DNA from: Bacillota bacterium | Lineage (GTDB): Bacteria > Bacillota > Clostridia > Lachnospirales > Bianqueaceae | Direction of reading: 5' to 3' | Length of the DNA stretch: 64,000 bases | Assembly (NCBI GenBank): GCA_017441925.1 | Contig: JAFRUE010000008.1 | Location: 62,001 to 126,000, forward strand | Shown here: positions 6,558-61,835 of the stretch, in pieces | Layout: the number at the start of each line of letters is the position of its first letter | Numbering within the stretch: the stretch's first letter is position 1 | Notes under the pieces: generated by a model | The model's input: the letters and a program-made list of their open reading frames with translations, nothing else | Told to the model about the DNA's origin: nothing | The model's database searches: none | Program-made: the position numbers and the translations under genes

Positions 6558-6594
6558 GGTTATCCTCCTTAATGATGGTATTTCTATGCCGTCT

Positions 6595-6623
6595 ACTATA
6601 CTCTTTTTTATCGGAAAGGTCAA
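6595..6623 (-). promoter_or_regulatory. Promoter of the opp operon
   Basis: On the minus strand TTGACC (6623-6618) and TATAGT (6600-6595) are separated by exactly 17 bp, about 40 bp upstream of the oppA start. This is a near-consensus vegetative promoter. Confidence 0.8.
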
Positions 6624-6662
6624 GACTTTTATCGGGATTTGCATTTTTTTGAACGGATTTAT

Positions 6663-7427
6663 TCAATTCGCAGAACAAGCCAGATCACGGGAAACATCCT
6701 GGATGCAGCGTTCAAAAACAGGAACGTCCGTATGCTCGGAGAGGAAGCAGACTATGAACGGTTTTTCTGTATAAATGATACCGCAGTCATGTGTGATGCC
6801 ATCGTCTTCGCCGGTCTTGTGGGCGATCGGGATCCCGTGCAGCCAGAACGGGATCTTGCCGTTCAGCCGCTGATCACGCAGGATCTGAAGCATTTTTTCT
6901 GAATAAGGAAGCTCTCCGTCCTGCATTTTATGCAGAAGCAGGGCGATGTCATAGGCTGTGACGGTATTCTCGATCCCCCGCGCGGACGCCTCACTGTCGA
7001 AAAGCAGACGGCGCAGAGTGATCCCCTGACAGCCAAGTGAGCGCATCCTGCTGTTTACACTGTCCATCCCGACCCTCTTAATGAGCAGATTGGTCGCAGT
7101 ATTGTCACTCAGGATGATCATCAGTGTTGCAAGATCGAGCGCCGAGACCTGCAGACCGGTATGCATATAATTCAAGGCACCGCAGGACGGCAGCTTGTCC
7201 TCTTCACGGATCACGAATTCCTCGTCCGGGAAAAGTGTACCTTCATTCATCTGTTCAAAAAACTCCACGAGCACAGGGATCTTGATGACGCTGGCCGCGA
7301 CGATCGGCTCATGTTCCTGAAAGCCGGCTGTACTGCCGTCCGTAAGGTCACGGTAATAGAAGCCGACATGTCCGGGCTGCAGGGAGATCTTCTCGAGTGC
7401 AGCCTGTACGGTTGCGGAAAGACTCAT
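6663..7427 (-). CDS. Class A beta-lactamase-like serine hydrolase, cytoplasmic
   Basis: A 254-residue protein starting at ATG 7427 (AGGAG just upstream; an in-frame start 22 codons earlier has no ribosome binding site). It carries the ordered class A motifs: SVIK at residues 46-49 (catalytic Ser46 and Lys49), SDN at 107-109, and KTG at 204-206. The segment corresponding to the omega loop (about residues 144-158) shows an EN pair (Glu153-Asn154) but no clear ExxLN, so the deacylation residue is uncertain. There is no signal peptide or lipobox, unlike true secreted beta-lactamases. It may therefore be a cytoplasmic amidase or esterase acting on peptides, in keeping with the flanking peptide-uptake and peptidase genes, rather than a resistance enzyme. 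That role is inference. Confidence 0.8.
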   Translation of the reverse strand: MSLSATVQAALEKISLQPGHVGFYYRDLTDGSTAGFQEHEPIVAASVIKIPVLVEFFEQMNEGTLFPDEEFVIREEDKLPSCGALNYMHTGLQVSALDLATLMIILSDNTATNLLIKRVGMDSVNSRMRSLGCQGITLRRLLFDSEASARGIENTVTAYDIALLLHKMQDGELPYSEKMLQILRDQRLNGKIPFWLHGIPIAHKTGEDDGITHDCGIIYTEKPFIVCFLSEHTDVPVFERCIQDVSRDLACSAN

Positions 7428-23100: not shown

Positions 23101-23240
23101 TGCACCTTTGCGACGAGAAAGAAGCCTGGTGCGGTCCGATGGCCTGGCGCAGCGAAGGAACCCGCTTCTGCTATGAATATCAGCTGAAGCGGACAGGCAT
23201 ACTGTCCGCACCGGTACTGCTGCTGGAGAAGGAAGAGTGA
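20127..23240 (+). CDS. Large GH106-like glycoside hydrolase
   Basis: A 1037-residue protein without a signal peptide, starting at ATG 20127 after AAAGGAG. The first 60 residues contain the clan hallmarks PFWAWNCKLD, GLGGFHMHPRTGLDTPYLS, and then LAWLYDEDRWPSGAAGG, which are shared with alpha-L-rhamnosidase family GH106 and related clostridial glycosidases; AIFTDEPQF is a probable acidic active-site strand. The C-terminal 300 residues are beta-sandwich domains (GNVTYHFEVEGNGGECLLE). It probably removes a terminal sugar, possibly rhamnose, from oligosaccharides inside the cell. Family is fairly sure, sugar specificity is not. It forms an operon with the ADP-ribosylglycohydrolase-like gene. Confidence 0.82.
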   Translation: MNKNFDKVFRNPDSSYRGAPFWAWNCKLDAETMAHQVEYFKEMGLGGFHMHPRTGLDTPYLSKEYMKVIKACVEKAHKEKMLAWLYDEDRWPSGAAGGLVTKDPKYRARYLVFTPVKQTGPLPRTKRFGSSMGYLQQQGNGKYLASYEVEIRDGVLAGYRRLDGEDTLPDNSADGDKSVWYLYEEIMPDSGWFNDQAYLDTLNPKAVQRFIEVTHEAYYKEVGDEFGKTVPAIFTDEPQFAHKTTLGFAEEKKDCQLPYTDDFDETYRKQYGAEFLDTVPEIFWELPDGAVSVSRYRYHDHIAERFASAFADTIGKWCEQHGLMLTGHMMSEPTLTSQTAALGEAMRSYRSFGQPGIDMLCDRREYSTAKQAQSAVHQYGRKGMTSELYGVTGWDYDFRGHKLQGDWQAALGVTLRVQHLSWASMAGEAKRDYPASIFFQSPWYKEYPYIEDHFARVNTALMSGKPDVRIGVIHPVESMWLAWGPQEQTAAAKAQLEEHFRDTIDWLLRGQLDFDFVAESLLPAQDPVQKGRRFHVGEMAYDAVVVPGNVTLRSTTLEKLEAFRRAGGQLIFMGDPARYVDAIPSDRAQKLAKKSVRIAFSRTELLAALENVRNVSVFRADGSRAGEYLYQMRVERDGKWLFLAQADQEKNRDVPNRQNVVIEIPGVWNVEIYNTLDGGQYPAKTEIKDGSTRIRYTLYDHDSLLLRLTPAPKTIDIPARGDNNSVKDCIRVQRPWGKVPVTLSEPNTLLLDMAEYSLDGEEWAEPEEILRIDNILRERLSWPLKVEAFAQPWTRKKEKAEHTLALRYTIDSALDIRNVKLATEHPEDLTISWNGVEIDTKADGWYVDPAICTIPIGDVQEGQNTLIIEMPYKVETNVEWSYLLGDFGVEVHGDHSRITEPVRSLYFGDWTVQGLPFYGGNVTYHFEVEGNGGECLLEASKYRNPLLKVRVDGEEKGVLAYAPYRISLGRLDGVHKVELTAFGNRVNSFGPVHLCDEKEAWCGPMAWRSEGTRFCYEYQLKRTGILSAPVLLLEKEE

Positions 23241-23540
23241 GCACGTTCTAGCCGATCAGATCCTATAAGATTCCTGGCAGAAAAATCGGTCAATTCAAAC
23301 CGAATTTCTGCTTTGGCAGAAAATCATGTCATTTTCGGCTGTTTTTCTGTTTTGGGTGCTGTCTCGTGCAGAATTCTCTGTCTGTTTGACCAGCTTTTCT
23401 GCTTTTCCCATTGCAGGAGAACTTTGAAAGCAGAGAAATAGGCCATTATCACATCCTTTTCTGCTTTTATGAAAAGATTATAGGGCCTCCGGCAGAAAAA
23501 CAGACTTAAAGCCATGCTTTTTCTGCCGGAGGCTCTGTTT
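23241..23540 (+). repeat. Gene-free region with a GCAGAAA/TTTCTGC hairpin array
   Basis: No gene is visible. Within 260 bp the word GCAGAAA occurs at 23277, 23316 and 23491 and its complement TTTCTGC at 23305, 23396, 23458 and 23520. They build at least two good hairpins: GCAGAAAAATCGGT (23277-23290) with 23299-23311, just after the glycosidase gene, and a perfect 16-bp stem at 23485-23500/23518-23533. The first may end the glycosidase transcript. The re-use of one word is not explained by simple termination. Confidence 0.6.
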
Positions 23541-24029
23541 GCAGACCGAAAATGAGGGAAAGCGCTCTGTGATCGCATGCTGAAACAGGCCGATGAGGAT
23601 ATATTGATAGGAAAGAGCTCCTCATTCCGTAGGCGCTGTCTTCAGTAAGGGTACTACAATTTCCAAAGCATAAACACCGTTGCATGTGTCCGTATACAAT
23701 CTTCCACGATATGAGCGGAGTGCGGAGCGAACCAGAACATGACCGTATTTATACCTTGGACGGTCGTGCTCTGGTTCGTTTTTTGTTCTGCAAGAAACAA
23801 AGCAATTCATGCCGTTCATGCCAGAATCAAAGCCTTTCGTGCCAAAAAGAAGGATTAAGCTCCAACATGCGGTATAATATAAATAATGGAGTTTTTTCTT
23901 TTTACATCCGAATGCAAAGAACCTTTGCGTGACTTTTTCGGGATGATTCCGTATAGTGAAGATGTAAGGCATCTAGCCGCGACGCGTTTTGCGGCAGGTC
24001 ATTTTACGGAAAGGGCAAGGGTGACGCGA
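23541..24029 (+). other. Gene-free stretch containing an isolated terminator
   Basis: No convincing coding region is seen on either strand. It contains a strong terminator at 23728-23784, a short run of TTCATGCC words (23808-23823), and a TATAAT box (23873-23878) without a clear -35 that may serve the following regulator gene. Confidence 0.5.
23728..23784 (+). terminator. Strong intrinsic terminator with no gene upstream
   Basis: Arms 23728-23746 and 23760-23778 pair at 18 of 19 positions around a 13-nt loop and are followed by TTTTTT. The nearest upstream plus-strand gene ends 488 bp away and has its own hairpins, so this terminator may belong to an untranslated RNA. Confidence 0.75.
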
Positions 24030-24707
24030 ATGAATGACGTAGCGAAGAATATCCGAAAAATCCGATTCGCAGCCGGCATGACGCAGGAAGAGCTGGCGGA
24101 GAAGATGTTTGTTACAAGGCAGACGATCAGCAACTGGGAGAACGGGAAGAGCCAGCCGGACGTTGAAACACTGACTAAGCTGGCGGAGCTTTTTCGTATA
24201 GAAGTGACAGAACTGATCTACGGCAAGAGAAACTCATATCGGAGTTTTCAGAAAAAATACATCATAGCAGCGGCTTCCGCTCTTTGTGTTGTTCTGGCGT
24301 GGATCATCTGGGAGCAGACCTGGTATCGGCCACTGACGCAGGGACATACAGCAGGCTTTGCGAATGTTTTCCTGCTGGGGATTTTATATTTTATCGTAAA
24401 ACCGCTCGGTTTCATGGCGCTTGGCGTGTTTTTCCTGTCCATTCTGTCCTTCGGAATCGATACCAGGCTGGAAAGGCGTACCCGGATCCTAATCCTGATC
24501 GTTGGAATCATACTGGCAGTTCTGTCACTCTGGATAGCCATCGAACTGATTCTGGTGTTCTTAGCGCCGCAGGTGCTTCCGGGGTTTATTGTTTATTCCT
24601 GGGTCTATCGCTCGGCGTTCCTAAAGCAGGTCTTCTTGTGCGGAATACCGTTTATCGCCGGATGTATGCTGTTTCTGGGCTTTAACAAGAGAGGCGGCAG
24701 ACAATGA
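24030..24707 (+). CDS. Membrane-bound XRE-family regulator
   Basis: A 225-residue protein starting at ATG 24030 (GGAAAGGGCAAGG upstream); the longer open frame lacks a binding site. Residues 7-60 are a Cro/C1-type helix-turn-helix with MTQEELAEKMFVTRQTISNWE and SQPDVETLTKLAELF. From residue 76 on there are about four to five hydrophobic segments, so the DNA-binding domain is tethered to the membrane. The following lipoprotein gene overlaps its stop (ATGA), suggesting the regulator senses or controls that lipoprotein or envelope state. Target promoters are not evident. Confidence 0.85.
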   Translation: MNDVAKNIRKIRFAAGMTQEELAEKMFVTRQTISNWENGKSQPDVETLTKLAELFRIEVTELIYGKRNSYRSFQKKYIIAAASALCVVLAWIIWEQTWYRPLTQGHTAGFANVFLLGILYFIVKPLGFMALGVFFLSILSFGIDTRLERRTRILILIVGIILAVLSLWIAIELILVFLAPQVLPGFIVYSWVYRSAFLKQVFLCGIPFIAGCMLFLGFNKRGGRQ

Positions 24708-25492
24708 GGAGACGAATTACGGCCATTCTGTATGCGGCTTTATTGGCTGTTCTGTCCTGCGTTACGGGGTGCGTACAGGGCGCGGAAACGGAGCCGGAGT
24801 GGACGGATCCGTTTTATTTGGACGATGAAGACGCGAAGTATGTTTCGGTTTCTTTTTATCTTCCCGATTCTTACGGGAAGCGAAATGTAGACTGGGAAGT
24901 TGTGCGGCTGCCGCAGTTTTATCTTGACCCGCTGAGAGAAAAGACTACGCCTAGGGAGATGAGCTCTGATCATTCTTTTACGATAAAGCTGTCCACAGAA
25001 GCCAGAGATTTGTATATTATTCCGCCCGGGATTGCGCGGATAGAGGAGATAGAAGAGCAGCTTATCAGCATGGACCAGGACGCGCCGATCGAGACGGAGC
25101 TTTTTACGGTGGAGGCTGTATATATCCCGGAGCTGATCGGCGGAGAACCCTTGAAAAACGTGAAGCTTGAGGAGAAGGGCGTGGTGGTCTGCGCCAGGCT
25201 TTTTTCCGCGGCGGAGCAGTACCCGTATGCGATGTCTTTGCAATATGACGGGAAAAGCTATCCGCGGCGGAGTGTTTACACAGAGACTTTGGATGTCGTG
25301 GAACCATCTATTCAATACCGGAGATTTGATTGGGTGCTCCCGGATCTGTATACCGCCGCGATGGCAGTCAAATACGGGACGCTGAGCTATAAGAAGCTGT
25401 GGTCGGTCGAAACAGCCGAGGATGTAGTGTTTGTATGCGATGATGAGACGGTGAAGATACATCTGCTGGGCGCGGCATACGAGTCGGACTGA
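24704..25492 (+). CDS. Lipoprotein of unknown function
   Basis: A 262-residue protein whose first 23 residues are a lipoprotein signal (MRRRITAILYAALLAVLSC then lipobox VTGC). The rest is acidic and probably extracellular, with no family I recognise. Its ATG overlaps the stop of the membrane regulator by 4 bp, so the two are translated together and probably act in one pathway. Confidence 0.72.
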   Translation: MRRRITAILYAALLAVLSCVTGCVQGAETEPEWTDPFYLDDEDAKYVSVSFYLPDSYGKRNVDWEVVRLPQFYLDPLREKTTPREMSSDHSFTIKLSTEARDLYIIPPGIARIEEIEEQLISMDQDAPIETELFTVEAVYIPELIGGEPLKNVKLEEKGVVVCARLFSAAEQYPYAMSLQYDGKSYPRRSVYTETLDVVEPSIQYRRFDWVLPDLYTAAMAVKYGTLSYKKLWSVETAEDVVFVCDDETVKIHLLGAAYESD

Positions 25493-25650
25493 GATATGCA
25501 CAGAGGTCTTGATCTGAGTTTTTTAAGATTTTCAGGAACTGCCTGAGATTTCTGGCATCTTTTTGCGAGTATAAAAGTATCAGGGTATGGAGTGTATTAT
25601 GATGATAGAAGGTGTTTTTGCTATACCTTTGTCGCAGGGAGGTGTTTTAG

Positions 25651-28137
25651 ATGCAAAAGAAATGGGCATGTCTATTCATATGCATATTCCTATTAACAGG
25701 ATGTGTTACGCCTGCTTCAGAAGATCAGTCCGACAGTAAAGGTGTTTTGCAGCAGAGCGCTGTGGCTGAAGAAATGAGCAGTTCGGAACCGGCCGAAGAG
25801 ATGAGCCATTCCGAACCGGCTGCGGAAGATGTCCGGCCTTCGGAGCCGGCGTATGTCCCTGGATATTTGGAACCGGATACGATTGGAACCGCCTGCAGGG
25901 GGGAGATGCCCGCGTTTCCGGCCGACTTTGAGATGCTGGAATATGCTGCCGGAGATATTTATATACGCAAGGATTCTCCGGAAGAGGGATACGAAGACGG
26001 TTATATTTATTATCGGCTGGTACATACAAACTGGAAAAAGGGAGAAGACGGCAGTTATCTTGGGAGACAGGAATACAATAAAGATCCGGAGATGCTCTGG
26101 GAGAAGGATCCCTATTATTCTTACAGTCAGGATTTATCGGTGGGTGAAGGCAAGGACGCCATACAGCTTCATATTGAAGGACTGGTCAATTTAATCTGGG
26201 AACCTGGCTGTCGGCAGATGATCCAATTCCGTTCTGTTGCCGATGATCTTGGCCCACGCAAAACCATGATGATAAATTATACAATATGGATGGAGGTCCC
26301 TTTTCGGACAGCTTCCGGAGAAACCCGTCATTACTGGGTATTCTGGGACCCGGAGATGCAGTGTTTCCATCCGTTTGCAGAGCAGTCACATCTGTGGGAA
26401 GCGGCGATTGAGGAGAACTATACACTCGAGGTAGAGGAGATAGAACGATCCGAAGCAGGCCTTGAAAAAGTTGCCGTGTATTTCGCAGGGGACAGTGGCC
26501 GGCGGCTGCGTCTGCTTGGTGAACCGTCTCAGGGAATTGTTGTGCCGGCGGATGATCCGATACTACTGCGGGAAGATCCTGGAGATGAACAAGGAGAAAC
26601 GGCGATCCGACCGGCAACAATATCTGAAGACGGTGTCTATAGCATTGATCTTCACGGCAATACGTTTCGGTTCCGAACGGATTTTGACGGGAATATGCCT
26701 GCAGCTGTTTCTGCGGATCCGGGCGCTCCTGTTAAAGCGGAATATACTCTGCATCATTATTTGGACAGTACCTGGCTTGAACTGAATGCTCCGATTACGG
26801 AACAAACGGTGTATCCCAGTGATGTCACGTACTATCTTTATTGGAACAAGGCATCCGGACGATTTGAGGATGCGCTGTGGAGAACCGATATCTGGTACAG
26901 AAGCCTGGAATCGCCGCTCACAATTGTTGATATCCGGACAGACGATATAGATAGTGAAAGTGCGCGCCTGCTGTTTAAAAATGAGAGGCAGCAGTATTAT
27001 TTCCTGGATCTTATGATTATGCGAGAAGCCTTCTTAATCAACCAGCAGGCCTGGGGCATAGGCAGAAACGCATCGGATGATCCGACAGGGGCAGAGTACG
27101 CGATACAATCGCAGCCTGCTTTTGTGACGCTGCAGGAGGATGGCGTAACAGCCGTATATGATGCGAAGAAGGTAGATGCGTTATCCGGTGACGAAGCTGA
27201 AGTCTATGAGCCGGCAGAGGAGCACAAACGTTCTTCTGCATGGTTTGGTTATTTACAATCGGATTATTCCATTAACAGGATCAATGCGCTGTCGCTTTTA
27301 ATCATAGGAGATCCGGGTCTATATCGATTTATTGTTGAAGATATGGGCGATCCGGATGTCCGGCACTATACAGGCATGGTATATTCGCCGAAGGAAGGCT
27401 GTTCTAAAGAGATTGTTTTTACGGATGATCTTGCCGGAGTCCATATACATGAATTCTGCCTGAATCCGGGAGATGAAGCGGCCGAAACAGAATGGATGAA
27501 GATTAATGTCGGCGGAGAGGCAGTTATGGTTCCCTATCCTCCGGAAGATAAGCAGATTCTAAGGATGCCGGGTTCCCCGCATCTTTACAGCCGGCGAAGG
27601 ATTCCGTATAAACCCGGCTATTCCGAAGGAAGCGGTTATTATGTTTTACAGGGAGATGCGTGGGTTGAGGTTCCGGAAACTGAGCTTGTGCAGACATTTA
27701 CGATACGTGGGATTGAATATGAAGCACACATGCTTCTGACTGTGGATGACGGATATCTGCTGCAGATCAGAAAACAGAAGATCTTCGCGGAAGATTCGGA
27801 ATATGATACCCACTATTTATTAACGTATAGAGACGGATTTGCTTTTCTGGAAATTAGGCCAGCTTATGCAGATCTGGGAACAATCGATCCGGTCCGGAAT
27901 GTTTATTTCCCATGGAATTCGGAAACAGGGCAGTTTGACGATATTTTCGCGGATTCCAACTACTGGGATATTGCTAAAGACGAAGTTCTGACATTACAAA
28001 GTGTTTCGGAAGACGGGACAGTATTTATCTTTGAAGGGACAAGCGGGAATGGAACAACAAACAACTACCGCGTGGAATGGCCGGAAATGCGCTTTGTACA
28101 GATGAAACAGGAGGAAGAGGATTTGGGCAGGCATTAA
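25651..28137 (+). CDS. Large lipoprotein of unknown function
   Basis: An 828-residue protein with a GGGAGGTG binding site and a clear lipoprotein signal (MQKKWACLFICIFLLTGC). Residues 24-70 are a low-complexity linker with three SSEPAEEM/HSEPAAED-like repeats, as expected for a spacer away from the membrane. The remaining 750 residues are rich in aromatic residues and beta-strand-like segments (YYRLVHTNW, HYWVFWDPEMQCFHPF, YYLYWNKASGRFEDALW), with at least three repeats of a Y-x-Y/F-W-x-P/K pattern, suggesting a repeated beta fold. I do not recognise a family. It lies between the membrane regulator pair and the BlaI/BlaR1-like pair on the same strand. Confidence 0.72.
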   Translation: MQKKWACLFICIFLLTGCVTPASEDQSDSKGVLQQSAVAEEMSSSEPAEEMSHSEPAAEDVRPSEPAYVPGYLEPDTIGTACRGEMPAFPADFEMLEYAAGDIYIRKDSPEEGYEDGYIYYRLVHTNWKKGEDGSYLGRQEYNKDPEMLWEKDPYYSYSQDLSVGEGKDAIQLHIEGLVNLIWEPGCRQMIQFRSVADDLGPRKTMMINYTIWMEVPFRTASGETRHYWVFWDPEMQCFHPFAEQSHLWEAAIEENYTLEVEEIERSEAGLEKVAVYFAGDSGRRLRLLGEPSQGIVVPADDPILLREDPGDEQGETAIRPATISEDGVYSIDLHGNTFRFRTDFDGNMPAAVSADPGAPVKAEYTLHHYLDSTWLELNAPITEQTVYPSDVTYYLYWNKASGRFEDALWRTDIWYRSLESPLTIVDIRTDDIDSESARLLFKNERQQYYFLDLMIMREAFLINQQAWGIGRNASDDPTGAEYAIQSQPAFVTLQEDGVTAVYDAKKVDALSGDEAEVYEPAEEHKRSSAWFGYLQSDYSINRINALSLLIIGDPGLYRFIVEDMGDPDVRHYTGMVYSPKEGCSKEIVFTDDLAGVHIHEFCLNPGDEAAETEWMKINVGGEAVMVPYPPEDKQILRMPGSPHLYSRRRIPYKPGYSEGSGYYVLQGDAWVEVPETELVQTFTIRGIEYEAHMLLTVDDGYLLQIRKQKIFAEDSEYDTHYLLTYRDGFAFLEIRPAYADLGTIDPVRNVYFPWNSETGQFDDIFADSNYWDIAKDEVLTLQSVSEDGTVFIFEGTSGNGTTNNYRVEWPEMRFVQMKQEEEDLGRH

Positions 28138-28167
28138 GAGAAAAAAACAGATTCAGGAAAGAAACAC

Positions 28168-28222
28168 TTGACAAACCAGGTCGATAAATGTAGACTATGG
28201 TTGGGGTCTAAAGTTATAGACC
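28168..28222 (+). promoter_or_regulatory. BlaI-type promoter with two 18-bp operators (locus 1)
   Basis: TTGACA (28168-28173), 17-bp spacer, TAGACT (28191-28196). Operator O1 is GGTCGA-N6-TAGACT (28179-28196), covering the -10 box; O2 is the perfect dyad GGTCTA-N6-TAGACC (28205-28222). The layout is repeated base for base in spacing at 58710-58764 in front of the paralogous pair, which is strong evidence that these are the repressor sites. Confidence 0.82.
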
Positions 28223-28240
28223 GCGGAAGGAGTCTACACC

Positions 28241-28600
28241 ATGAGTATCGAACTGACAATGGCACAGGAACGTTTTGCGGATATTGTCTGGGCACACGAA
28301 CCGATCGGATCCGGAGAACTGGTCAGAATCTGTGCAAAGGAACTGAACTGGAAGAAATCCACGACATACACCGTACTTGCGAAAATTTGTGAAAAAGGCC
28401 TTCTGCAGAATATTAACGGCCTTGTGACATCACGTATTTCCAAAGAGGATTTCTACTCATCCAAAAGCGAAAAGATTGTCGAGGATTCTTATGAGGGATC
28501 TCTGCCGGCATTTGTCGCAGCTTTTATTGCTCGGAAAAACCTTACGGTTAAGGAGGCAGAGGAAATCCGCCGTATGATTGACGCCTTCAAGGAGGAATAA
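28241..28600 (+). CDS. BlaI/MecI/CopY-family repressor (locus 1)
   Basis: A 119-residue winged-helix protein with AAGGAG upstream. The helix-turn-helix region (about residues 8-60) contains QERFADIVWAHEP, the turn SGELVRICAKELNWKKSTTYTVL with recognition helix KKSTTYTVL, and a wing around GLVTSRISKEDF. The C-terminal dimerisation part has GSLPAFVAAF and KEAEEIRRMI. BlaI repressors dimerise on dyads and are cleaved when the partner BlaR1 protease is activated. It is two bases upstream of the BlaR1-like gene. Its closest relative in the window is the 58785 gene, identical at roughly two thirds of positions by eye. Confidence 0.93.
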   Translation: MSIELTMAQERFADIVWAHEPIGSGELVRICAKELNWKKSTTYTVLAKICEKGLLQNINGLVTSRISKEDFYSSKSEKIVEDSYEGSLPAFVAAFIARKNLTVKEAEEIRRMIDAFKEE

Positions 28601-28602
28601 TC

Positions 28603-30906
28603 ATGAGCGGGATTTTTCTTAAAATACTCAATATGAGCATAGCGGCTGGATGGATGATCCTTGCTGTTGTGCTGATGCGTGGAATCCTACGTAAAGCACC
28701 AAAATGGACGATCTGTTTGCTCTGGGCAATCGTGGCGGTCCGGCTGATCCTTCCGTTTTCTTTTGAAAGTAGGTTCAGCCTGGTTCCAAGCGCCGAAACA
28801 ATACCGCAGAATATTACAGAACAGCAGGAACCTGCCATCAACACAGGGATTTCAATTATAAACGAAGCGATCAATCCCATAATTGCGGATAATTTTGCTC
28901 CGACAAAACCGACGGATACACAATCGAAAGATTCGGTAAAACAGGACGTTCCAGAGATGCCAGCAAGTCAGATTCATACGGAATCTCCAGCTCCGGCGGT
29001 CCCGGAAGACCCGAAGAAGGCAGATGTTCCCACGATCATCAAACCACTGCAAAGAGTTTTAAAAACAGCATCGGTGATCTGGCTGGCCGGGGTTATTGCT
29101 ATGCTCATCTATGCCCTCATCAGTTATTTGAAGATCCGCAAAACGGTTGCCATGTCCGTCCCGGCAGGGGACAGATATGAAGAAATACTACCGGCCGGGA
29201 TTCGGATCAGGGCCGGCGATGAAGTGAAATCGCCGTTTATTCTTGGCATTATCCGGCCTGTTGTCTATGTACCTTTTGCTGTGGACGGCGAATCTCTGAA
29301 CTATGTGCTTCAGCATGAAGCTGCGCATCTGAAGCGGCGTGATCATTGGTGGAAGCCTTTGGGATTCCTGTTGTTAGCGGTTTATTGGTTCAATCCGCTG
29401 TGTTGGCTTGCTTATATCCTGCTGTGCAGAGATATAGAAGTTGCCTGTGATGAAAAAGTAATCCGGGATATGGACAAATACTCGAAGGCCGCCTATTCAA
29501 ATGCATTGCTGAATTGCAATTACTCACGGCAGAAGGTTGCCGTGTGCCCGCTAGCCTTTGGAGAAGTCGGCGTAAAACAACGGATCAAGGGTATTCTGAA
29601 CTATAAAAAGCCTGCATTCTGGAGCATCCTGATCGCACTGATTGCCTGTCTTGTGGTTACGGTGTGTCTGTTGACGGATCCGGTTTCAGGTTCCGGCAGA
29701 GAAGTATCTGAAGCAGATTCAAGCGGAGAAGATTCCGATGTGATTTCTCACAAAGATGAGATTCAGTATGCCGAGACTGTCGATGAACTGGAGGAGGCGG
29801 CGGGTCATAAGATCAACAATATAGAGAGTTTTACAGTAATAGCCACATCGGTTTCTGCCGATAGCTGCGATCTGACGTATTCCAATCAGACGGAAAGGCT
29901 GTATGACGCGGGAGCTGAGTTCTGGCTGTACGCAAAAAACGTGGAATCCGGCTGGTACAGGCTGCCCTATAAGGAATCCGATATTCCGCTGGCTTTCCCG
30001 ATGTCTGCTTATCCGGTCGCTCCGGGCAAAGAGCGGACTGATCATTATAATATTGAGGCATATTATGGGACGCTTCCGGATGGCGAATACTGCATGGTTA
30101 TCGGTGTGCAGCCGGAACGGGACGATGACCGGTATCCGGAAGAAAAGAATGTAGACATCACGCAACTGGAATCATATTTCACAGTATATTTTACAATTCC
30201 GGCAGAGAGCCAGACGGCAGAAATGGCCGAATGGAACGCGTATCTTGCGTCGATGGCGGATGAGGCAGAGCTATTTACATCCGTCGATTTCGTGACGATC
30301 TATGACGAGCCGTTGAAAAGGACACTGTATCAGTACACAACGGAGGAAGGGGAAACCTTCACTTTCACGGATCAGAAAGAGCTCCGCTCATTCACTGTAG
30401 AAAACTGGTGGGAGGAGATGCCGGACGATCTGCCGATTCTCGTGAAGACGGCACAGGATGCCGTAGACGCCTTTATTGAACAGTATGGGATGGTGATTCC
30501 AAATCTGGAACAATATAAGATAGCCAGATACGACGATGCAGCAGACTTCAAGATGTGGGAGGTCATACTTGCCAGAAAACGCGGAGAATATCTGCAGGAT
30601 GAGATCAATATAAAAGTCCGGAAAGATGGGAAAGTCGTGGGTTTTATCCTTTCGATGCCCAAGATCGGCAACTATTCGGAAGAACAATACACACGGGATT
30701 ATAACGAAGCGGTGGAAGCCTTAAAGAACCTGCATCCGAAACAGAACTTAGAGCGATGTGAGCTGGCGGATTTACGATTTGATACTTATGATGACGGGAT
30801 CTGTGCGGCCACGTATACTTTCTACTGCAGTACCAGCCAATTCATGAATGGAACGAAATACGAGGCAGCCTTTGCAGAAGAATGCCGGATCATCGTCAGA
30901 CCATAG
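28603..30906 (+). CDS. BlaR1-like membrane metalloprotease with novel sensor (locus 1)
   Basis: A 767-residue M56-family protein. Two N-terminal helices (about 8-28 and 36-52), an extracytoplasmic Pro/Glu-rich loop (60-150), a third helix (about 155-175), then the cytosolic zinc site QHEAAHLKRRDHWW with His238-Glu239-His242 and the later glutamate motif EVACDE (279-284), and a fourth helix (about 341-358). In BlaR1 and MecR1 a penicillin-binding domain follows; here residues 385-767 contain no SxxK or KTG motif. Instead there is an Ig-like strand-rich part (about 400-530, GEYCMVIGVQ) and a second unknown domain (540-767). It should cleave its BlaI partner on sensing an external signal, which is probably not a beta-lactam. 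Confidence 0.88.
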   Translation: MSGIFLKILNMSIAAGWMILAVVLMRGILRKAPKWTICLLWAIVAVRLILPFSFESRFSLVPSAETIPQNITEQQEPAINTGISIINEAINPIIADNFAPTKPTDTQSKDSVKQDVPEMPASQIHTESPAPAVPEDPKKADVPTIIKPLQRVLKTASVIWLAGVIAMLIYALISYLKIRKTVAMSVPAGDRYEEILPAGIRIRAGDEVKSPFILGIIRPVVYVPFAVDGESLNYVLQHEAAHLKRRDHWWKPLGFLLLAVYWFNPLCWLAYILLCRDIEVACDEKVIRDMDKYSKAAYSNALLNCNYSRQKVAVCPLAFGEVGVKQRIKGILNYKKPAFWSILIALIACLVVTVCLLTDPVSGSGREVSEADSSGEDSDVISHKDEIQYAETVDELEEAAGHKINNIESFTVIATSVSADSCDLTYSNQTERLYDAGAEFWLYAKNVESGWYRLPYKESDIPLAFPMSAYPVAPGKERTDHYNIEAYYGTLPDGEYCMVIGVQPERDDDRYPEEKNVDITQLESYFTVYFTIPAESQTAEMAEWNAYLASMADEAELFTSVDFVTIYDEPLKRTLYQYTTEEGETFTFTDQKELRSFTVENWWEEMPDDLPILVKTAQDAVDAFIEQYGMVIPNLEQYKIARYDDAADFKMWEVILARKRGEYLQDEINIKVRKDGKVVGFILSMPKIGNYSEEQYTRDYNEAVEALKNLHPKQNLERCELADLRFDTYDDGICAATYTFYCSTSQFMNGTKYEAAFAEECRIIVRP

Positions 30907-30973
30907 TTTTGTATGGATTTCCGGTGGATTCTATGAATCTGCAAATGCGTGAAACAGATGAGGGGTGATATGT

Positions 30974-32674
30974 ATGGCTAAGTCATTTGGAAAAACGCTT
31001 AAGCGTTTCTGGTGGGCGATCGTCCTGCTGGCCGCAGGGCTGTTTTTGGCGTACACATTTATCCGATATCCGCTTAAGACCACGCTTTCCAGACTTGCGC
31101 ACATGGATCCGGACAGTTGTCGGATTGTGTTGTGGCATTGGGGCAAAGAGGCTGAGATTGCCGATGAAAACGCCAGAACGTTACTGTTGGATTCCCTTGA
31201 CGGTGAGCTGAAAAGGCGTGCTGTCGGCGACTGGATCATGAAGACGGCCGGCGGCGACTGGGTCCTGAAGCTTTCGGACGGGGAGAGAGAGGTACAGCTG
31301 ATCCTGTATCCCGGTCATTCAACGGATATCGCAACCCAGCCTTTCATCAAATACGGACACTATGAATATGCCGTGGAGCGCATGATTTCCTATGAAAAAC
31401 TGAACTGGCTGTTTGAGGACGCGGTTTCTTCGGCGGAAGCTCCGGGAACCCTCCCGGCAGTCGAGGTCGTTCATGAGCGGATCTCCATGTCCGAAGCCGC
31501 GCGAAATCAGTATCTTTCCGTTGATGGATTTGTTCTCTGTTATGATTACAGCGGCCAGGACTGGGACGGCGAAAAAGGCGAGTCGCTCGGCATGACAGAG
31601 GAAAAAGGTCCGACATGGGTGGCCGAGAGTCTGCCGGCGTACATGCCGCCTGATCGTTCGGACCGGAGCTATATTCTGGTTGAAAAAGACGGAGTGCTGC
31701 AGATTTACGCTGCCGGCAGTATTGCAGGACGTTATGGGGAGGGCAGCGGTGACAAGTATACTTTCGGCCAGGTGCTGGATCTGCTGGGGGAAGATGATGC
31801 TTCGGAAGCCAGGCGGATCACGATAGAGGAGGTTCCCGGATGGCCGGATTATTACGAATCCAGAGTCATCACGAAAGAAAAAGATATCAGAGATCTGGTT
31901 GAAGCTTTCCTTGAGATGCCCAATGTGTCACAGGGCGAGTACAATGCGCATAATGCTGTTACCGGCGAGGCGAATTATCTGGAAGGGGCAGCCGATCCGG
32001 GAATTGGACGCCTGAGGGAGAGGACGTTTACTGTTCAGTTCTCGTCAGGGAATCGATACAAACTGAAGCTGGATCCAGTTAGTGGATATATAAGTATCAC
32101 CGGATATATGAGTGTCAGTGGTGAACCGAGCAATTGGGGGACCTATAAAGTGTCCCCGGAGTTGTGCGATCAGCTGATCGAGCTTGCCGGAATCGACTTG
32201 GATATGGAGAAACTATATGCATTGGGCGAAGAGCGGACTGCTGCGGGAGAGGCTTTCCGTGCGATAGACCGTCGGTTTATTACGGTCCGGGATGGTGTCC
32301 GGGATGGTGGGTACTATGCCGGTACGTGGCTGACGGGGACGGATGTTGAGGTCTGGCTTACGGATGCCGCAACAGAGGAAGACGTTGCGGCGATCAGAAA
32401 AACCGCGAACTATGACAAGGTCATTTTTCATAAGGCGCGATACACCTATAAAGAGCTTGGCGACACCAGTGGACAGATCCGTCGGGATGCCGAGGCCGGA
32501 CTGCTGCCGTTTGTCGTATCGAATATGATGCTGATAAAAGAAAACCGGGTCGCAGTGGAGATCTCCGAGAACACGCCGGAGAATCTCCGGAAACTGATGG
32601 AGTATGTCCCTGACGGTAATCCGGCAATGCTGCATGTTCAGATATACCAACCGCTGCCGTTACTGGGGGAATAA
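30974..32674 (+). CDS. Membrane-anchored extracytoplasmic protein, unknown function
   Basis: A 566-residue protein starting at ATG 30974 (AGGGGTG upstream; an in-frame GTG three codons earlier is less likely). One N-terminal helix (WWAIVLLAAGLFLAYTFI, about residues 13-30) follows a basic stretch, so the rest is outside the cell. The exterior is acidic, with a possible tandem similarity between the parts near HWGKEAEIADENARTLLL and the C-terminal VEVWLTDAATEEDVAAIR. No family is recognised. It starts 67 bp after the BlaR1-like gene and is probably the last gene of that transcript, hence a candidate target or ligand-binding partner of the sensor. Confidence 0.72.
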   Translation: MAKSFGKTLKRFWWAIVLLAAGLFLAYTFIRYPLKTTLSRLAHMDPDSCRIVLWHWGKEAEIADENARTLLLDSLDGELKRRAVGDWIMKTAGGDWVLKLSDGEREVQLILYPGHSTDIATQPFIKYGHYEYAVERMISYEKLNWLFEDAVSSAEAPGTLPAVEVVHERISMSEAARNQYLSVDGFVLCYDYSGQDWDGEKGESLGMTEEKGPTWVAESLPAYMPPDRSDRSYILVEKDGVLQIYAAGSIAGRYGEGSGDKYTFGQVLDLLGEDDASEARRITIEEVPGWPDYYESRVITKEKDIRDLVEAFLEMPNVSQGEYNAHNAVTGEANYLEGAADPGIGRLRERTFTVQFSSGNRYKLKLDPVSGYISITGYMSVSGEPSNWGTYKVSPELCDQLIELAGIDLDMEKLYALGEERTAAGEAFRAIDRRFITVRDGVRDGGYYAGTWLTGTDVEVWLTDAATEEDVAAIRKTANYDKVIFHKARYTYKELGDTSGQIRRDAEAGLLPFVVSNMMLIKENRVAVEISENTPENLRKLMEYVPDGNPAMLHVQIYQPLPLLGE

Positions 32675-32748
32675 GCTGTTATCTTGATATCTGAAATTGC
32701 GGCCGGATCAATACACAGCTGATCGTACATGATTGCTCTTGATTGCGC

Positions 32749-32780
32749 AAAAAAAACCGCCTCTCAAATACGAGAGACGG
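32749..32780 (-). terminator. Terminator of the asnS-acetyltransferase unit
   Basis: A 9-bp stem with 6-nt loop (32757-32780), followed on the minus strand by eight T residues (32756-32749). On the plus strand it is followed by TATATTTTTG, so it may also stop the converging transcript. Confidence 0.88.
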
Positions 32781-32824
32781 TATATTTTTGTGTTTTCGCG
32801 TTTTGTGCTGCCGGGGACAGTTTT

Positions 32825-33673
32825 TTACTGATCCAAGCACAGCGACATCGTTCCCTGGAAGGGATGGAACGGATCGCGGCCGAGGGCTTTGTACATGCCG
32901 ACGGGGATCTCCGTACCGGATTCGTTCAGCAGGATCGACGTGCAGCCGGTGTCGGCGAGCAGGGATGCTCCGAGCTCGTCCGTGAAGGGCAGACTGCATT
33001 CCCGGATGTGCAGTGTGTGGTCGTGCAGCGTGTAGGCTGCGTAACCGATGCGGCCGTCCTGTTCAAAGCAGACGACGTCGCCTCCGAAATGGCGGAGCTC
33101 CTGCAGGATAAAGTCGGGACACATCAGCCGAAGCTGTGTGCGCTGTTTCTGCAGATAAGCCGCGCGCATGACGGTGAAATCGATCGCGGACGGCGTCCAC
33201 AGTTCGTAATGGGAGTAGGGAACCAGATCGTCGATGAATCGTTCGGACCGGTAGAAACGGTAAGTGAAACCGTGTTTGTCCAGAGCCGCTGCGATACGTT
33301 CGTCCGATGGTGCCGCGCAGAGGAAACGCGCGCCTTGAGACGCAGCATAATCCTGCGTCATGGAGAACAGCCGGCTCATCAGACCGCCGGACTGCAGCTG
33401 CGGTTTGGTCGCCGCGGCATACAGAAACGAGCCCGGTGTATTCTGCAGCCGGGCTGGTATTAATGTGATCATGGAAACCGGCGTCCCGGAGGGATCACGC
33501 AAAAGCAGTGTCTCGCCGGGACGGTAACTGTTCTTCAGGAAAAACTGCGCGTCCTCACGTGTCTGCCCGAAGCATTGCTGCCACATGGCGGAGAGAGTCC
33601 GGTAATCACCGGGCCGCGCGAAATCAAAGGACGTATCAAGATCCATCATAAGGCTTTCTGTCTGTAAGGACAT
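32825..33673 (-). CDS. GNAT-family N-acetyltransferase
   Basis: A 282-residue protein with an N-terminal GNAT domain (about residues 15-150): AEDAQFFLKN-like helix, strand VSMITLIPARL, the pre-acetyl-CoA strand FLYAAATKPQLQSGGLMSRLF (the Q/RxxGxG/A-like loop here being QLQSGGL) and FLCAAPSDERIAAALDKHGF. The C-terminal 130 residues form a second domain of the kind seen in Eis-like acetyltransferases (FTVMRAAYLQ). The acetyl acceptor is unknown. It is 42 bp downstream of asnS and shares its transcript. The start has no strong ribosome binding site; Met9 or Met10 are alternatives. Confidence 0.85.
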   Translation of the reverse strand: MSLQTESLMMDLDTSFDFARPGDYRTLSAMWQQCFGQTREDAQFFLKNSYRPGETLLLRDPSGTPVSMITLIPARLQNTPGSFLYAAATKPQLQSGGLMSRLFSMTQDYAASQGARFLCAAPSDERIAAALDKHGFTYRFYRSERFIDDLVPYSHYELWTPSAIDFTVMRAAYLQKQRTQLRLMCPDFILQELRHFGGDVVCFEQDGRIGYAAYTLHDHTLHIRECSLPFTDELGASLLADTGCTSILLNESGTEIPVGMYKALGRDPFHPFQGTMSLCLDQ

Positions 33674-40052: not shown

Positions 40053-43000
40053 ATGAAACGAAATCTGAGGAAGTTTTCAAGTCTTGTTCTCGTGTTGATC
40101 ATGCTTCTTAGCACGGTCAAGCCCGTCTACGCAGAGGGTCCCGCTGATGGACAGAGCGTCCCGCCTGCAGAGATGAGCCAGACAGAGACAGATGAAAACA
40201 ACGAAGAGGCAGCCCCTGCTGAGTCGGTTAAGGAGACCCCGGCAGAAGAGGACAACGAGACTCCTGCCGAGGAGGTCAACGAGACTCCTGCCGAGGAGGT
40301 CAACGAGACTCCTGCTGAGGAGGTCAAAGAGACTCCTGCCGAAGAGGTCCAGGAGACCCCTGTCGAGGAAGTCCAGGAGACCCCTGTCGAGGAAGTCCAG
40401 GAGACCCCTGTCGAGGAGGTCAAGGAGACCCCTGCAGAGGAGGTAAAGGGAACTCCTACTGAGGAGGTCCAGGAGGCCCCTGCTGAGGAAGTCCAGGAGA
40501 CCCCTGCTGAGGAAGTTAAAGAGACTCCGGCTGAGGAAGTCAAGGAGACTCCTGCAGAGGAAGTAAAGGAAACTCCTGTCGAGGAGGTCCAGGAGACTCC
40601 TGTAGAGGAATCTGAGGAAACTCCTGCAGAGGAGCCTGAGGAAACTCCTGCAGAGGAGCCTGAAGAGACTCCTGCGAAGGATGATCAGCCTGCGCTTACC
40701 AAGAACATGTTGATGAAAGGCGCGCCTATTCTGAAGAACGCGGATCCTTCCGAAGAGCCTGTTTTTGATGACAGCACGAATCCGTTTACCTATACCCATG
40801 GAGATATGGTGCTTAGCTGTTCCAAATTGGGTGATGGAGAACTCAGCATATCGATTACGAAAGCTTCAGGAGATGTTGTGATTCCTGAGAAGATCGGAGA
40901 CTATACCGTTACGACGGTCTACTCTGTGCCTAAAGATGTTGCGGCCGGCATTACGAGCCTGACGCTGCCGGATACCGTAAGAACGATTCCCGGCAATCTG
41001 TTCGAGTTCCGGCAGTATAAGAACGAGAATCAGACGGAAAGATGGAATATAAAATCCAACTCTACCATCAGCTATTCCGTTCTGGATACCGATGCTCTGG
41101 AAGCGGCTGTTCCCGACTTTATTAAGAACAACTACGTTGACGGTGCCTATTACGCGGGAAAATGCCTTGTCCGTGTGGATCCTTCCTACAGTGGCAATTT
41201 CACCGTTAAGGACGGCACGATCTGCGTTCTGGCAGGTGCCTTTGCCGGTTGCAAAAACCTTGGCGCGGTAACGCTTCCCGATACCGTGGAGTATCTCGGC
41301 GTCGGCGCCTTCCAGGATTCCGGCCTGACTTCCATCAACCTGCCCAAGGGGTTGGACGCGCGCAGCGCACAGGTTCGGGACAGAATTGAGAGCGGCGAGA
41401 TCACTTACATCAATGATCTCACGATTGAAACGCTTACGTTCTATGGCTGCGAGAATCTGAAGACCGTCACGATCGACGCGGACAACATCTATTCCGTCGG
41501 ATTCATGGCGTTCTTCGGTTGCACGGCCCTGGAAGAATTCGATATGAGGAAGGTCAGCTTGGTCAATTCCCTTTCCTTCGCTCTGGCGTTTGCGGAAGGG
41601 TATGAGCTGGATCTTTCCGAAACAGAGGATCTCAGCTGGTTTAACAGCCAGGGAGGCGACTGGAGCAGCTGTGCCTGGGGACCGTTCCTGCAGTCCGGCC
41701 TTTCTTCCGTCAAGTTCGGCGAAGAGCATTTCGGCATTATTCCTTACGAATGCTTCTGCAGCTGCCCGAATCTGGAGACGGTGACGTTCACTCCCCATCA
41801 GATCGAGTGCTGCACCCGTTCGTTCTACAACTGCGGCAAGCTGACCGGCGATCTGTTCGCCGAGAACAGCGGAATGGTCAAGCTGGAGTATCTGGCTTTC
41901 GGCAAAACAGGACTGACCGAGATCACGATTCCCGAAACGATGCTGTATCTGTGCGGCGGAGTATTTACCGAATGCCCGAAGCTGAAAACGCTGAACTGGA
42001 AGTCTGAACTGTTCTTCGCTCCCCAAGAGAAAAAACCCGAGTACTCGCTTTATAACGGCAATTACAGTACCGGTCAGCTGTTTGCGATTCTGGACAATTC
42101 AACCGATGCCGCATTCGGCAAAAAGGGTCATTATGAGTCGCAGTACTCCTCATATGACTATCGTTCCATGGGTAATTTTGCGGAAGCCCTGGAATACGCT
42201 TCCAACATGGATTCTTACGAGGATAAAACGACCCTGGAGACGCTGAACATCTACGTCAGCGACGATGCGTTTGTCCGTTACAACAGCACCTTCTGGGAGA
42301 TGCAGCCCAACCTTGAGACCGTCAATATCCATGCGGTATGGAAGACCGTTCCTTACTGCGCGTTCCAGGCCTGCGCCTCTCTGAAGAACTTTAATATGGA
42401 TTATCCCGAACAGCTGGAGAACGTCTATGAGAACGCGTTTGCCATCTGCGGATTTGAAGAGCTCGTGCTTCCCGGAAACGTTTCATACGATAAAGGAGCG
42501 TTCTGTTTCAACCGCAACCTGAAGAAGGTTGTGATCGAGGAGGGCGTTACCGAGCTTCCGTTCCTTGCTTTTGAGCGCTGCGAGAAGCTGACGCAGGTTT
42601 CGATTCCAGAGTCGTTGGAAGCTTTCGGCGTAGCATCTTTCAAGGGCGCCGGAGATCATCTGACAATCTATGTTCCGACGAAAGTAGAAGTGATTGAAGA
42701 TGATGCTTTCACTTATGGAAACAGTTCAGCGGAACGGATCGCGCTTATTCTGATGGATGATCCGATTATTGAGACATATCATTTAGGAGTGTCCGGAGGT
42801 GAAAACAAAGCAACATTAGACAACCGATCCGTATATCGTATCTATACAAATCAGGGTTCTAATTTCATTTCATATGCATCCAGTTCTTCTAATCTGACAA
42901 GCGATATCCGCCAGGTGCCTGCCGACAAGGTTACAATTACCAGTACGGAGAAAAAAATCTATGTCGGCGAGACACCGGATAAGAGCAAAGTAACCGTTAC

Positions 43001-46000
43001 GCTGAACGGAACCGAGCTGACGGCAGAGCAGTTTGATCTGGAATATGACGAGACGGACAAGACTGTCGGAACCCACCACGTTAAGGTCATTCTGACCGGC
43101 GAGACTGCAGAGAACTATCTGCTGGGCAACGATATTTCGGCTGTCAATTTCTACAAAACAGCGAAGAGCGGTCCGGTTTATGACGTAGTCAGTGCTGACA
43201 ATCTCGGATATGATGTTGAGGTCGTGAAGGCTGTCTATACATTCACTGAAGGCGGCGGAAGCACATATACCAAGCATCAGGATACGGGAACGCTTGACTT
43301 TAAGGTAAACCGTGAAGAGGATGATGAACTGACCTTTGCACGCTTTACCCGTCTGCTCGTCGACGGCAAAGAGCTTGCTGCAGAGAACTATACGGTATCT
43401 GAAGGCAGTCTGAACGTCAGCTTGGCGGAAGATTATCTGGAGAACGCTGTCGTCGGCACACACACCCTCAAGGCAGAATTTACCGACGGCGAGGCAGAAA
43501 CCGAGTTCACGATCGACTCGATCCCGCCGAAAACGGTCGATACGGAAGATAACGTTGAGAAGGGCATCACGCTGAATCTGTTCGATTACCACATCGCTTC
43601 CGACTGGTGGCAGTACGGCGACCGCTGGGCTAACCAGGGCGGACAGTGGTCATACGGCGGCATCAACGATGCTTCTAATCTGAAGTTCTACGGCCACGGC
43701 GGTGATGAAGTGCTCTCCGGCAACAGTAATATGTATACCGGCGCTCCGATCGCCCGTCAGGGTATCGTACAGCCGCTGCTCGGTGAGAACGGATATCCGG
43801 TGATGACCGAGTTCGGTCAGCAGAATCTGGAGCTTCTGTTTGCACCAGAGACGGTCGAAGGACAGAAGACCGTCTATAAGAACGTAAATCATTTCTTCCA
43901 GCTGGATAAGCAGGGCAACTATTATTACAACAGCGATCAGAATTACGCTTATTATGATCCTGAACAGGGCGACGAAGGGGATTATAAGGTCTATGACGGC
44001 ACTTATGTTGTCAATATGACCAACCCAGAGAATGAAGCGACGTCCGAGAAGGTCAACGTCGGTTATTTCCCGTTTGACGACTGGAACGAAGCGAAACAGA
44101 ACGTGGCTCCTTCCGATGATCTGGCAGCACAGGGCATCGAGGGTTATAACCACCAGCACGGTCTGACCATGAGCTGCAATTTCTTCATTCCGGAAGAAGG
44201 TACGCTCGATGGAGAAGATCTGGTCTTCAGTTTCAGCGGCGATGATGACGTCTGGGTATTCGTGGACGGCGTACTGGTTCTCGATATCGGCGGTCTGCAT
44301 CGTCCGCTCGGCGGATCCATCAACTTCAGCACCGGTGAAGTACTGGTTGACGACGCGGTAGTCCTTGCGCCTTACAATGGCGAAGTGCCGACACCGGAGA
44401 CCAATGGAACCTACAATACGCTGAACGACATTTTCGCAAAGGCCGGCAAGACCTTTGAGACCGGCAATGTAAAGCACACACTGAACTTCTTCTATATGGA
44501 GCGCGGCGGCTGCTATTCCAACCTGTCCCTGATGACCAATATCTGGAAGGTTACAGGCGACGAAGAGTACACGCAGATCCATGTAACCAAGAAATGGGAA
44601 GATGAAGAAGACCATTCCGGAGATACCGTTACCGTACAGCTTCTGGCTGACGGCGAAGACGTGGAAGGACGTACTGAAGAAATCTCTGCGGAAAACGACT
44701 GGACCGCGGCTTTCACCCGCCTGCCCAAGTATAAGACGGATGATGACGGCAATCAGACAGAAATCGTTTATTCCGTACGTGAAAAGCACGTCGATGATTA
44801 CTTCACCACCTATAAAGCCGGCGGAAAGCTGCTTGTTTCCAAGAACTACTGGGTACAGGTAGATCCGTCCGAACTCAAAGACGGTGAGATCTATGTAATC
44901 ACATCCAACTACTGGATCGACGATACGTATGATGATATTCTGTACCGTGCTGCCGGCAATAATCTCGGGTATATCAAGGCGAATATCCGCGAACAGGAAG
45001 TAACGGATACGGAAGGCAATAAGTATGACACCATTCTGGCCGGTTCGATTCAGTCCAGCTCACAGTGGACGGCACAGCAGGTCAAGCCTGAACAGACTGA
45101 GCCTGCAGAGGGCGGAGAAACCGGTGACGGCGGAGAAACCACAGAACCTGCAGAGGCCGAAGTCCGCTGGATCCTTTCCAATAACGGCAAGGCTTTGACA
45201 CTGGTAGGACATAATGAGTGGTGGTGGCATAATTATTCCTTCACCCTGACCGACCAGACTGGTTGGAACGGTGCTGAAAACAACAATTATAATAACGAGC
45301 TGTCCATCACTCCTGATGCGGACGACAAAACCGCGACCATTCATGCCTTTGAACTCTGGGGCGACTATTCGGGCAATCTGGTTCCGGATCCGGAGCAGTA
45401 CATGCTGCTGAACGGCGACAAGACTATCGGAGCTACCAACAATCCGGACTGGGCCGGACATTACCGCTTCTTCAAGCAGGTGACGGAAGAGACCGAGATC
45501 CCGCTTGAGAAGGACTGGACTGTCGTGAACAGCCCGGCAGGCGACCTGACCGTTAAGAAGGTCGTAACCGGTCCCAAGGTTGCGGATCACGAGTTCACTT
45601 TCACCGTTGAGCTGAGCGATAATACGCTGAACGGGACCTTCGGCGATATGGAATTCACCGCCGGCAAGGCAACGTTCAAGCTGAAGGACGGGGAGAGCAA
45701 GACGGCTCAGGATCTGCCGGCTGACATCACTTACACCGTCAGCGAGACACCTCGCATCGGTTATACAACGACATCTGAAGGCGCATCCGGAACGATCGTC
45801 GCGAAGGAAGAGCAGGAAGCTGTATTTACCAACGCTGTAGATGTGGTAGAGGTTCCTGTCGAGAAGATCTGGAACGACGCGGACGATCAGGATGGCGTAC
45901 GTCCGGACTCCATTGAACTGACGCTGTACGCCAACGATGCGGAGAAGGATATGGCGACCGTTGAGCCGGATGAAAAAGGCAGCTGGAATTATACATTTGA

Positions 46001-58709: not shown

Positions 58710-58764
58710 TTGACAACGAAAGTCTATTGGAGTAGACTACAGTTAAAGTCTATCAGAATAGTCC
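58710..58764 (+). promoter_or_regulatory. BlaI-type promoter with two 18-bp operators (locus 2)
   Basis: TTGACA (58710-58715), 17-bp spacer, TAGACT (58733-58738). Operator O1 is the perfect dyad AGTCTA-N6-TAGACT (58721-58738) and O2 is AGTCTA-N6-TAGTCC (58747-58764). O1 begins 11 bp after the start of the -35 box and O2 begins 26 bp after O1, exactly as at 28168-28222. Confidence 0.85.
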
Positions 58765-58784
58765 GATGAAAGGATAAGTTGAAA

Positions 58785-59147: not shown

Positions 59148-59149
59148 GC

Positions 59150-61821: not shown

Positions 61822-61835
61822 TCATTGTTATTGCC

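Follow-up and report, generated by a model that had tools for sequence, protein, structure and literature searches.

We analyzed a 64,000-nucleotide stretch of DNA (the window) from a Bianqueaceae genome of 2.7 Mb in 16 contigs (assembly GCA_017441925.1, contig JAFRUE010000008.1, positions 62,001 to 126,000), and within it a gene block at 24030-32674 that encodes a BlaI-type repressor, a membrane protease of the Peptidase_M56 family (M56), and several exported proteins. All six open reading frames (ORFs) of the block lie on the + strand where an initial annotation had placed them. In order, they encode an XRE-type transmembrane regulator (24030), a lipoprotein (24704), after a 158-bp gap a second lipoprotein (25651), and after a 103-bp gap that holds a promoter and operators, BlaI (28241), the M56 protein (28603), and a membrane-anchored protein (30974); a hairpin and a convergent GNAT gene follow. 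Proteins without a name of their own are called here by the start of their gene. In the presumed blaI operon, the gaps are 2 bp (BlaI to M56) and 67 bp (M56 to 30974). The GC content at third codon positions (GC3) is 0.47-0.53 for the genes of 25651, BlaI, and the M56 protein, intermediate in 24704 (0.61) and 30974 (0.59), and higher for the majority of the window's remaining ORFs (largely 0.57-0.78).

A BlaI-M56 pair behind tandem operators

Within the 103-bp gap, a candidate promoter, TTGACA-17-TAGACT (28168-28196, + strand), overlaps operator 1 (GTCGATAAATGTAGAC, 28180-28195), a dyad with one mismatch; operator 2 (GTCTAAAGTTATAGAC, 28206-28221) is an exact dyad. The promoter is the top-scoring promoter-like match within 23200-33000, but since 14 such matches were found there against 12.0 ± 3.1 in shuffles, the match by itself is weak, and its position over the operator is what counts. 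The BlaI operators proposed by the initial annotation occur more than chance would allow: the exact GTCTA-N6-TAGAC dyad is found only twice in the genome, at 28206-28221 and 58722-58737, each time just upstream of a blaI gene and accompanied, at a distance of 26 bp, by a second dyad with one mismatch. A control pattern was found 180 times vs. 18 for the operator motif, which is therefore rare in the genome generally. Across 80 blaI start regions (three from the same genome), an exact GTYTA dyad was present in 46, compared with a mean of 0.04 and never more than 1 across 100 simple shuffles. The recognition-helix residue was P for 32 of 34 GTTTA operators (one S, one not read) and S or T for 11 of 12 GTCTA operators (one not read). 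Operator type and recognition helix thus agree, although the proteins are related, so the cases are not independent events and the agreement is not independent proof.

The repressor itself (28241-28600, + strand) matches Penicillinase_R (2.9e-19; 69.9 bits against a cutoff of 22.6), and its A94-F95 aligns with Asn101-Phe102 of the MecI/BlaI structures, placing Phe at P1′ of the cleavage site. As in BlaI/MecI systems, the tandem inverted-repeat operators lie over the repressor's own promoter. The M56 protein (28603-30906, + strand; Peptidase_M56, 6.6e-50) carries a gluzincin motif, H238-E-A-A-H242 and E279, that is invariant across six aligned proteins and agrees in spacing with His201...Glu242 as given in an excerpt of PMC9834060. 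Its extracellular tail consists of a Big_14 domain (residues 417-499, 2.5e-09) and a C-terminal region that matches no known family. The Big_14 part is related to a 188-amino-acid lipoprotein (31%) and a 297-amino-acid single-helix protein (28%) encoded elsewhere in the genome.

The third gene of the presumed operon, and its only nonregulatory one, encodes 30974 (30974-32674, + strand), a protein with one N-terminal hydrophobic helix at residues 12-30 by hydropathy and no lipobox visible by eye.

These features resemble BlaR1-BlaI and MecR1-MecI of Staphylococcus aureus in the HEXXH...E membrane protease, the winged-helix-type repressor with Phe at its cleavage point, and the operators over its own promoter. 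Homology of both proteins would fit a plain beta-lactam resistance circuit with a true BlaR1/BlaI pair. However, Pfam found only M56 and Big_14 in the receptor, with no penicillin-binding, class D beta-lactamase-like sensor, or transpeptidase domain, and no penicillin-binding, beta-lactamase, or transpeptidase domain was detected in 24704, 25651, or 30974. The receptor's PDB match to BlaR1 is limited to the protease part (residues 157-350), and its score with the NCBI model blaR1_generic is 94.6 bits, below the cutoff of 400. We extended this comparison to the best 80 of at least 365 relatives of the focal M56 protein plus four hand-added loci (FOCAL, WIN2, C1, and G003), which yielded 86 tails from 83 of the 84 loci (L099 had no complete M56; two tails shorter than 60 amino acids were dropped). 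At E ≤ 0.01, Pfam recognized Big_14 in nine tails, Peptidase_M23 in four, DUF4825 and TcaA in two each, and sixteen other families once each; no transpeptidase or beta-lactamase domain was among these 20 families. A beta-lactam circuit is thus extremely improbable here, and the focal system, which does not qualify as a beta-lactam receptor, is taken as a variant of BlaR1-BlaI. It differs from the S. aureus system both in its outer part, Big_14 and a further region in place of a class D beta-lactamase-like sensor, and in its presumed output, an anchored protein rather than BlaZ or PBP2a.

A parallel in DNA recognition is found in Clostridium thermocellum. According to excerpts of PMC8457756, BlaI_0696 binds GTCTAT inverted repeats with two dyads per target, and DNA affinity purification sequencing assigned it a regulon of three operons, including BlaR1 genes, and BlaI_1845 a single operon. 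The focal system shares with these circuits the GTCTAT/GACTAT half-sites, the paired dyads, and BlaR1 genes together with hypothetical proteins as targets. In contrast to the C. thermocellum circuits, which those excerpts read as beta-lactam responses, we found no such sensor domain here, and two BlaI genes go with one operator type.

We therefore favor, with moderate confidence, a BlaI-M56 operon that controls itself and a single surface output, its receptor answering to something other than a beta-lactam, with the XRE-24704 pair and 25651 being separate. BlaI dimers on the two tandem operators over the promoter would silence the presumably cotranscribed genes of BlaI, the M56 protein, and 30974. 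The M56 receptor would act as a BlaR1-type membrane protease whose outer sensor, Big_14 with the further region, responds to a different ligand; once engaged, it would cut BlaI and allow 30974 to be made, and 30974 may then protect the cell or bind the ligand.

Several observations weigh against this reading. No exact GTYTA dyad was found in 34 of the 80 blaI start regions, including those of C1 and G003. Fourteen single one-mismatch operator-like sites lie elsewhere in the genome (of six checked, one falls in a 648-amino-acid open frame and five in frames of at most 131 amino acids), and BlaI may accordingly have a wider regulon beyond the two operons with exact dyads. In the region of the autocleavage loop (Ser283-Phe284), the receptor has a conserved AFGE segment, and alignment with 8exs puts F319 two residues off. 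The focal tail has no similarity to 30974, 24704, or 25651, so only gene order ties the receptor to its output. As far as expression and binding are concerned, the operon is a prediction read from gene order and operators.

Distribution of the genes and the XRE-lipoprotein neighbors

The initial annotation had joined both regulators and all four exported proteins into a single accessory envelope block and had named independent distribution of the genes as evidence to the contrary. We searched 58 genomes (the source genome included) and 392 genomes of the order. Matches to the focal M56 protein were found in 31 of the 58 genomes and XRE matches in 54, mostly to the HTH (helix-turn-helix) part alone. 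By comparison, 24704 was found in 1/58 and 1/392 genomes (its own only), 25651 in 2/58 and the same 2/392, the second match covering only residues 1-65, and 30974 in 1/58 and 2/392, the second genome being G350. Thus, 24704, 25651, and 30974 are almost confined to their own genome, and BlaI-M56 pairs are widespread without them, being present in many gut-derived Clostridia genomes.

Gene order in relatives points the same way. The GNAT gene adjoins a gene that we take to encode asparaginyl-tRNA synthetase (AsnRS), and the two are also adjacent in G001, a genome of the same genus. On the block's side of this pair, G001 has a different set of genes (L162, G001:C40, 1-9857), with other lipoproteins, one of them related to M56 tails of G001, and what appears by sequence to be a two-component pair. 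The G001 contig starts within this stretch, so the comparison covers a single side of the site; from G002, AsnRS residues 1-247 alone were obtained. The block may therefore occupy a variable site rather than represent a fixed system.

One functional system comprising both regulators and all four exported proteins is very unlikely on these grounds. The shared strand, the close spacing, and the low GC3 of several genes would suit it, as would a 25651-like lipoprotein on contig C1, whose gene lies about 5 kb away from blaI of another BlaI-M56 pair. Against it stand the independent distribution, the different genes that G001 carries at this flank, and the operators: in a genome-wide motif scan, no tandem BlaI operator pair preceded 24030 or 25651, and within the block such a pair is found only before the BlaI-M56-30974 genes.

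The annotation was right that the block holds two different membrane-linked regulators, one combining HTH_3 with hydrophobic helices in a single chain, the other being the Penicillinase_R/Peptidase_M56 pair. The XRE regulator (24030-24707, + strand; HTH_3, 1.4e-17 in Pfam; start best placed at the ATG at 24030, with searches using the sequence from 24033 on) has four hydropathy peaks, at about residues 76-94, 104-130, 146-170, and 199-217. With helices assigned from hydropathy alone, this is the architecture of a transmembrane transcription regulator, and by architecture alone it can be likened to BcrR, which excerpts of PMC10269533 describe as HTH and membrane helices in one protein. Unlike BcrR, the 24030 regulator is coupled to a lipoprotein: the start of 24704 (24704-25492, + strand) lies within the XRE stop codon in an ATGA overlap (24704-24707), as had been noted. 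BcrR is of the XRE type and has four helices. A reading of the region as a defense system was rejected, PADLOC having matched only the HTH region of the XRE protein and nothing in the seven other proteins given.

Both 24704 and the 828-amino-acid protein 25651 (25651-28137, + strand), which contains weak internal repeats, show a signal peptide and lipobox by eye. Of four exported proteins called unfamiliar in the initial annotation, 24704, 25651, and 30974 were rightly so described, with no Pfam family at E ≤ 1, and the C terminus of 28603 only partly, given its Big_14 domain. In NCBIfam, 24704 and 30974 likewise had no match at E ≤ 1, and the sole match of 25651 (E 0.027) is confined to its first 48 residues; 25651 had no match among plasmid sequences. 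The C-terminal part of 25651 is shared with the lipoprotein on contig C1. In our best reading, XRE-24704 is a separate one-component regulator coupled to its own lipoprotein, and 25651 is a further, separate lipoprotein without a BlaI operator.

Relatives of 30974

The protein 30974 joins two modules that its genome also encodes separately, one in a 152-amino-acid anchored protein (L060, 49%) and the other in a 422-amino-acid lipoprotein (L059, 46%). In G350, its relative (28%) forms the outer part of a 437-amino-acid membrane protein encoded directly after an extracytoplasmic function (ECF) sigma factor, a position like that of an anti-sigma factor (sigma domains were detected in the neighbor). 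A candidate occurrence of the 30974 N-terminal domain in the M56 tail of G012 (L073) was dropped, with a first match at E 0.18 and a profile search giving only E 3.6. A structure predicted for residues 31-566 from the single sequence was discarded (mean predicted local distance difference test score, pLDDT, 35.1), and 30974 had no match among phage sequences.

In L059, the gene for the 30974-like lipoprotein (6128-7396, contig C16) is overlapped by the gene directly upstream (4890-6128), which encodes an exported protein with a GDSG motif. We presume the motif to be that of a serine protease. On this view, the cell would make 30974 once its M56 receptor has sensed secreted proteins resembling serine proteases, or the damage they cause, and 30974 would inhibit or partner such a protein at the surface. 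The profile of the 30974 C-terminal family, after its own members, next finds the N-terminal part of this upstream protein, at E 0.0023 for the whole protein and 0.02 for the best stretch (among 1,551 entries, with duplicates). However, the score is weak, the hhalign probability is 19.9%, and Pfam and PDB searches lent the protease assignment no support, making this explanation quite improbable.

Receptor tails and neighboring lipoproteins

The window holds a second BlaI-M56 system, likewise of low GC3. Its tandem operators (58722-58763; exact dyad 58722-58737, one-mismatch dyad 58748-58763) precede a BlaI 66% identical to the first (58779-59147, + strand) and an M56 antirepressor (59150-61246, + strand) whose tail is paralogous to the lipoproteins that follow. 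The first of these (61836-62981, + strand) is related to the tail at 29% over 363 columns (3e-45), and the second, which continues past the window (62978-64000, + strand), at 39% over 355 columns (1e-71, with the full-length copy in L065). All three share a C-x4-C-x-H-x4-C motif. AlphaFold2 with three sequences predicted an all-beta fold (mean pLDDT 69) whose best PDB matches are beta-propeller proteins of the TolB and prolyl oligopeptidase types (E 6.5e-08 downward); at a template modeling score of about 0.45, these matches indicate the fold class only. Because the second operon has the same operator, the two receptors of the window are likely to feed each other's output. The stretch 58722-64000 also encodes a small exported protein, and beyond the window (L065) the second operon goes on with another exported protein and what look by eye like an ABC-type membrane protein and an ATPase.

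A third BlaI-M56 locus, on contig C1 (L058, G000:C1, 8356-17094), also encodes a CBM96 protein and the lipoprotein sharing the C-terminal part of 25651. The 175-amino-acid tail of its M56 protein shares 36% and 34% identity with the two flanking lipoproteins. A profile of this domain built from five proteins had matches in 3 of the 58 genomes; in G000 and G001 these are receptors as well as free lipoproteins, and in G016 the match is a receptor (1.9e-5).

We then asked how such similarity is distributed among the 86 tails. For 15 of them, a hydropathy rule predicted that the downstream gene run includes an exported protein, and four of these tails (L108, L139, WIN2, and C1) show similarity to that protein at E < 1e-3; of 210 control pairs, each a tail with a run from elsewhere, none was related. 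WIN2 and C1 were known beforehand and prompted the test, and FOCAL, too, was a manual addition; without these three, the count is 2 of 12. FOCAL is among the 11 loci without tail-neighbor similarity. At L108 (E 0.00027), both the tail and its neighbor contain, by eye, a Big_14-like region. A rule that every M56 tail copies its neighbor was rejected: BLAST found such similarity for 3/86 tails and phmmer (E < 1e-3) for 4/86, the expectation from other loci being 0.40. That receptors arise from copies of the proteins they control is supported at some loci and is not general; among the papers listed in searches of open-access literature, none had a title or abstract opening that describes M56 tails paralogous to neighboring lipoproteins. 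Tails were similar in 311 of 2307 pairs (13.5%) at 50-60% protease identity, in 115 of 464 (24.8%) at 60-70%, and in 24 of 44 at 80-90%, and by these counts tails are either exchanged or diverge faster than the protease. Outer M56 domains are thus swapped or fast diverging, some are relatives of coencoded surface proteins, and none was recognized as a beta-lactam sensor in the examined set.

The same survey bears on an alternative in which the BlaI-M56 pair, as an orphan chassis, would regulate chiefly itself, with 30974 and the other lipoproteins as passengers at a variable chromosomal site. A codirectional ORF of at least 80 amino acids starts within 250 bp of only 42 of the 86 M56 genes, only 15 have a predicted exported protein in the run, and the G001 flank carries other lipoproteins, all of which would fit. 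However, 30974 starts 67 bp past the M56 stop codon on the same strand, with the stretch GAGGGGTG before its ATG, and the family of its ectodomain also occurs at the ECF sigma locus in G350. We consider passenger status unlikely and retain 30974 as the probable output of the operon.

A broader model, which we put forward tentatively and hold to be possible but doubtful, is that BlaR1-type receptors of gut Clostridia gain new specificity when their protease is fused with a duplicate of an exported lipoprotein, which often comes from the same operon. Receptor and output would then bind the same ligand (sense and sequester), two such receptors acting on one shared operator would give combinatorial input here, and the classic beta-lactamase-fold sensor of BlaR1 would be one case among others. 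Should receptor and output recognize a common ligand, every operon of this kind would point to a sensor and a binder of a single signal. A surface sensor related to the proteins under its control, as proposed for the second and third M56 systems, would liken them to the RsgI anti-sigma factors of C. thermocellum (PMC12203970); unlike RsgI, an anti-sigma factor that depends on intramembrane proteolysis, the chassis here is M56 with BlaI. RsgI surface domains are common to the enzymes that these factors regulate.

In the M56 proteins of L074-L153, an AVCFLTNP-like segment recurs where the last helix leaves the membrane. This helix often ends in cysteine, mostly as AVC; a lipobox-like pattern is seen in a few members and was not counted as a lipobox origin.

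Outside the genes of the block, the hairpin that separates it from the convergent GNAT gene (32756-32781) is terminator-like on the - strand. The gap preceding the block contains two long hairpins (23482-23536 and 23728-23778), and an Rfam search of the window gave nothing at gathering scores, these hairpins included. The stretch around the second has a folding energy of -40.8 kcal/mol (z -7.2). Farther downstream, 40053-47834 encodes an exported protein of 2593 amino acids.

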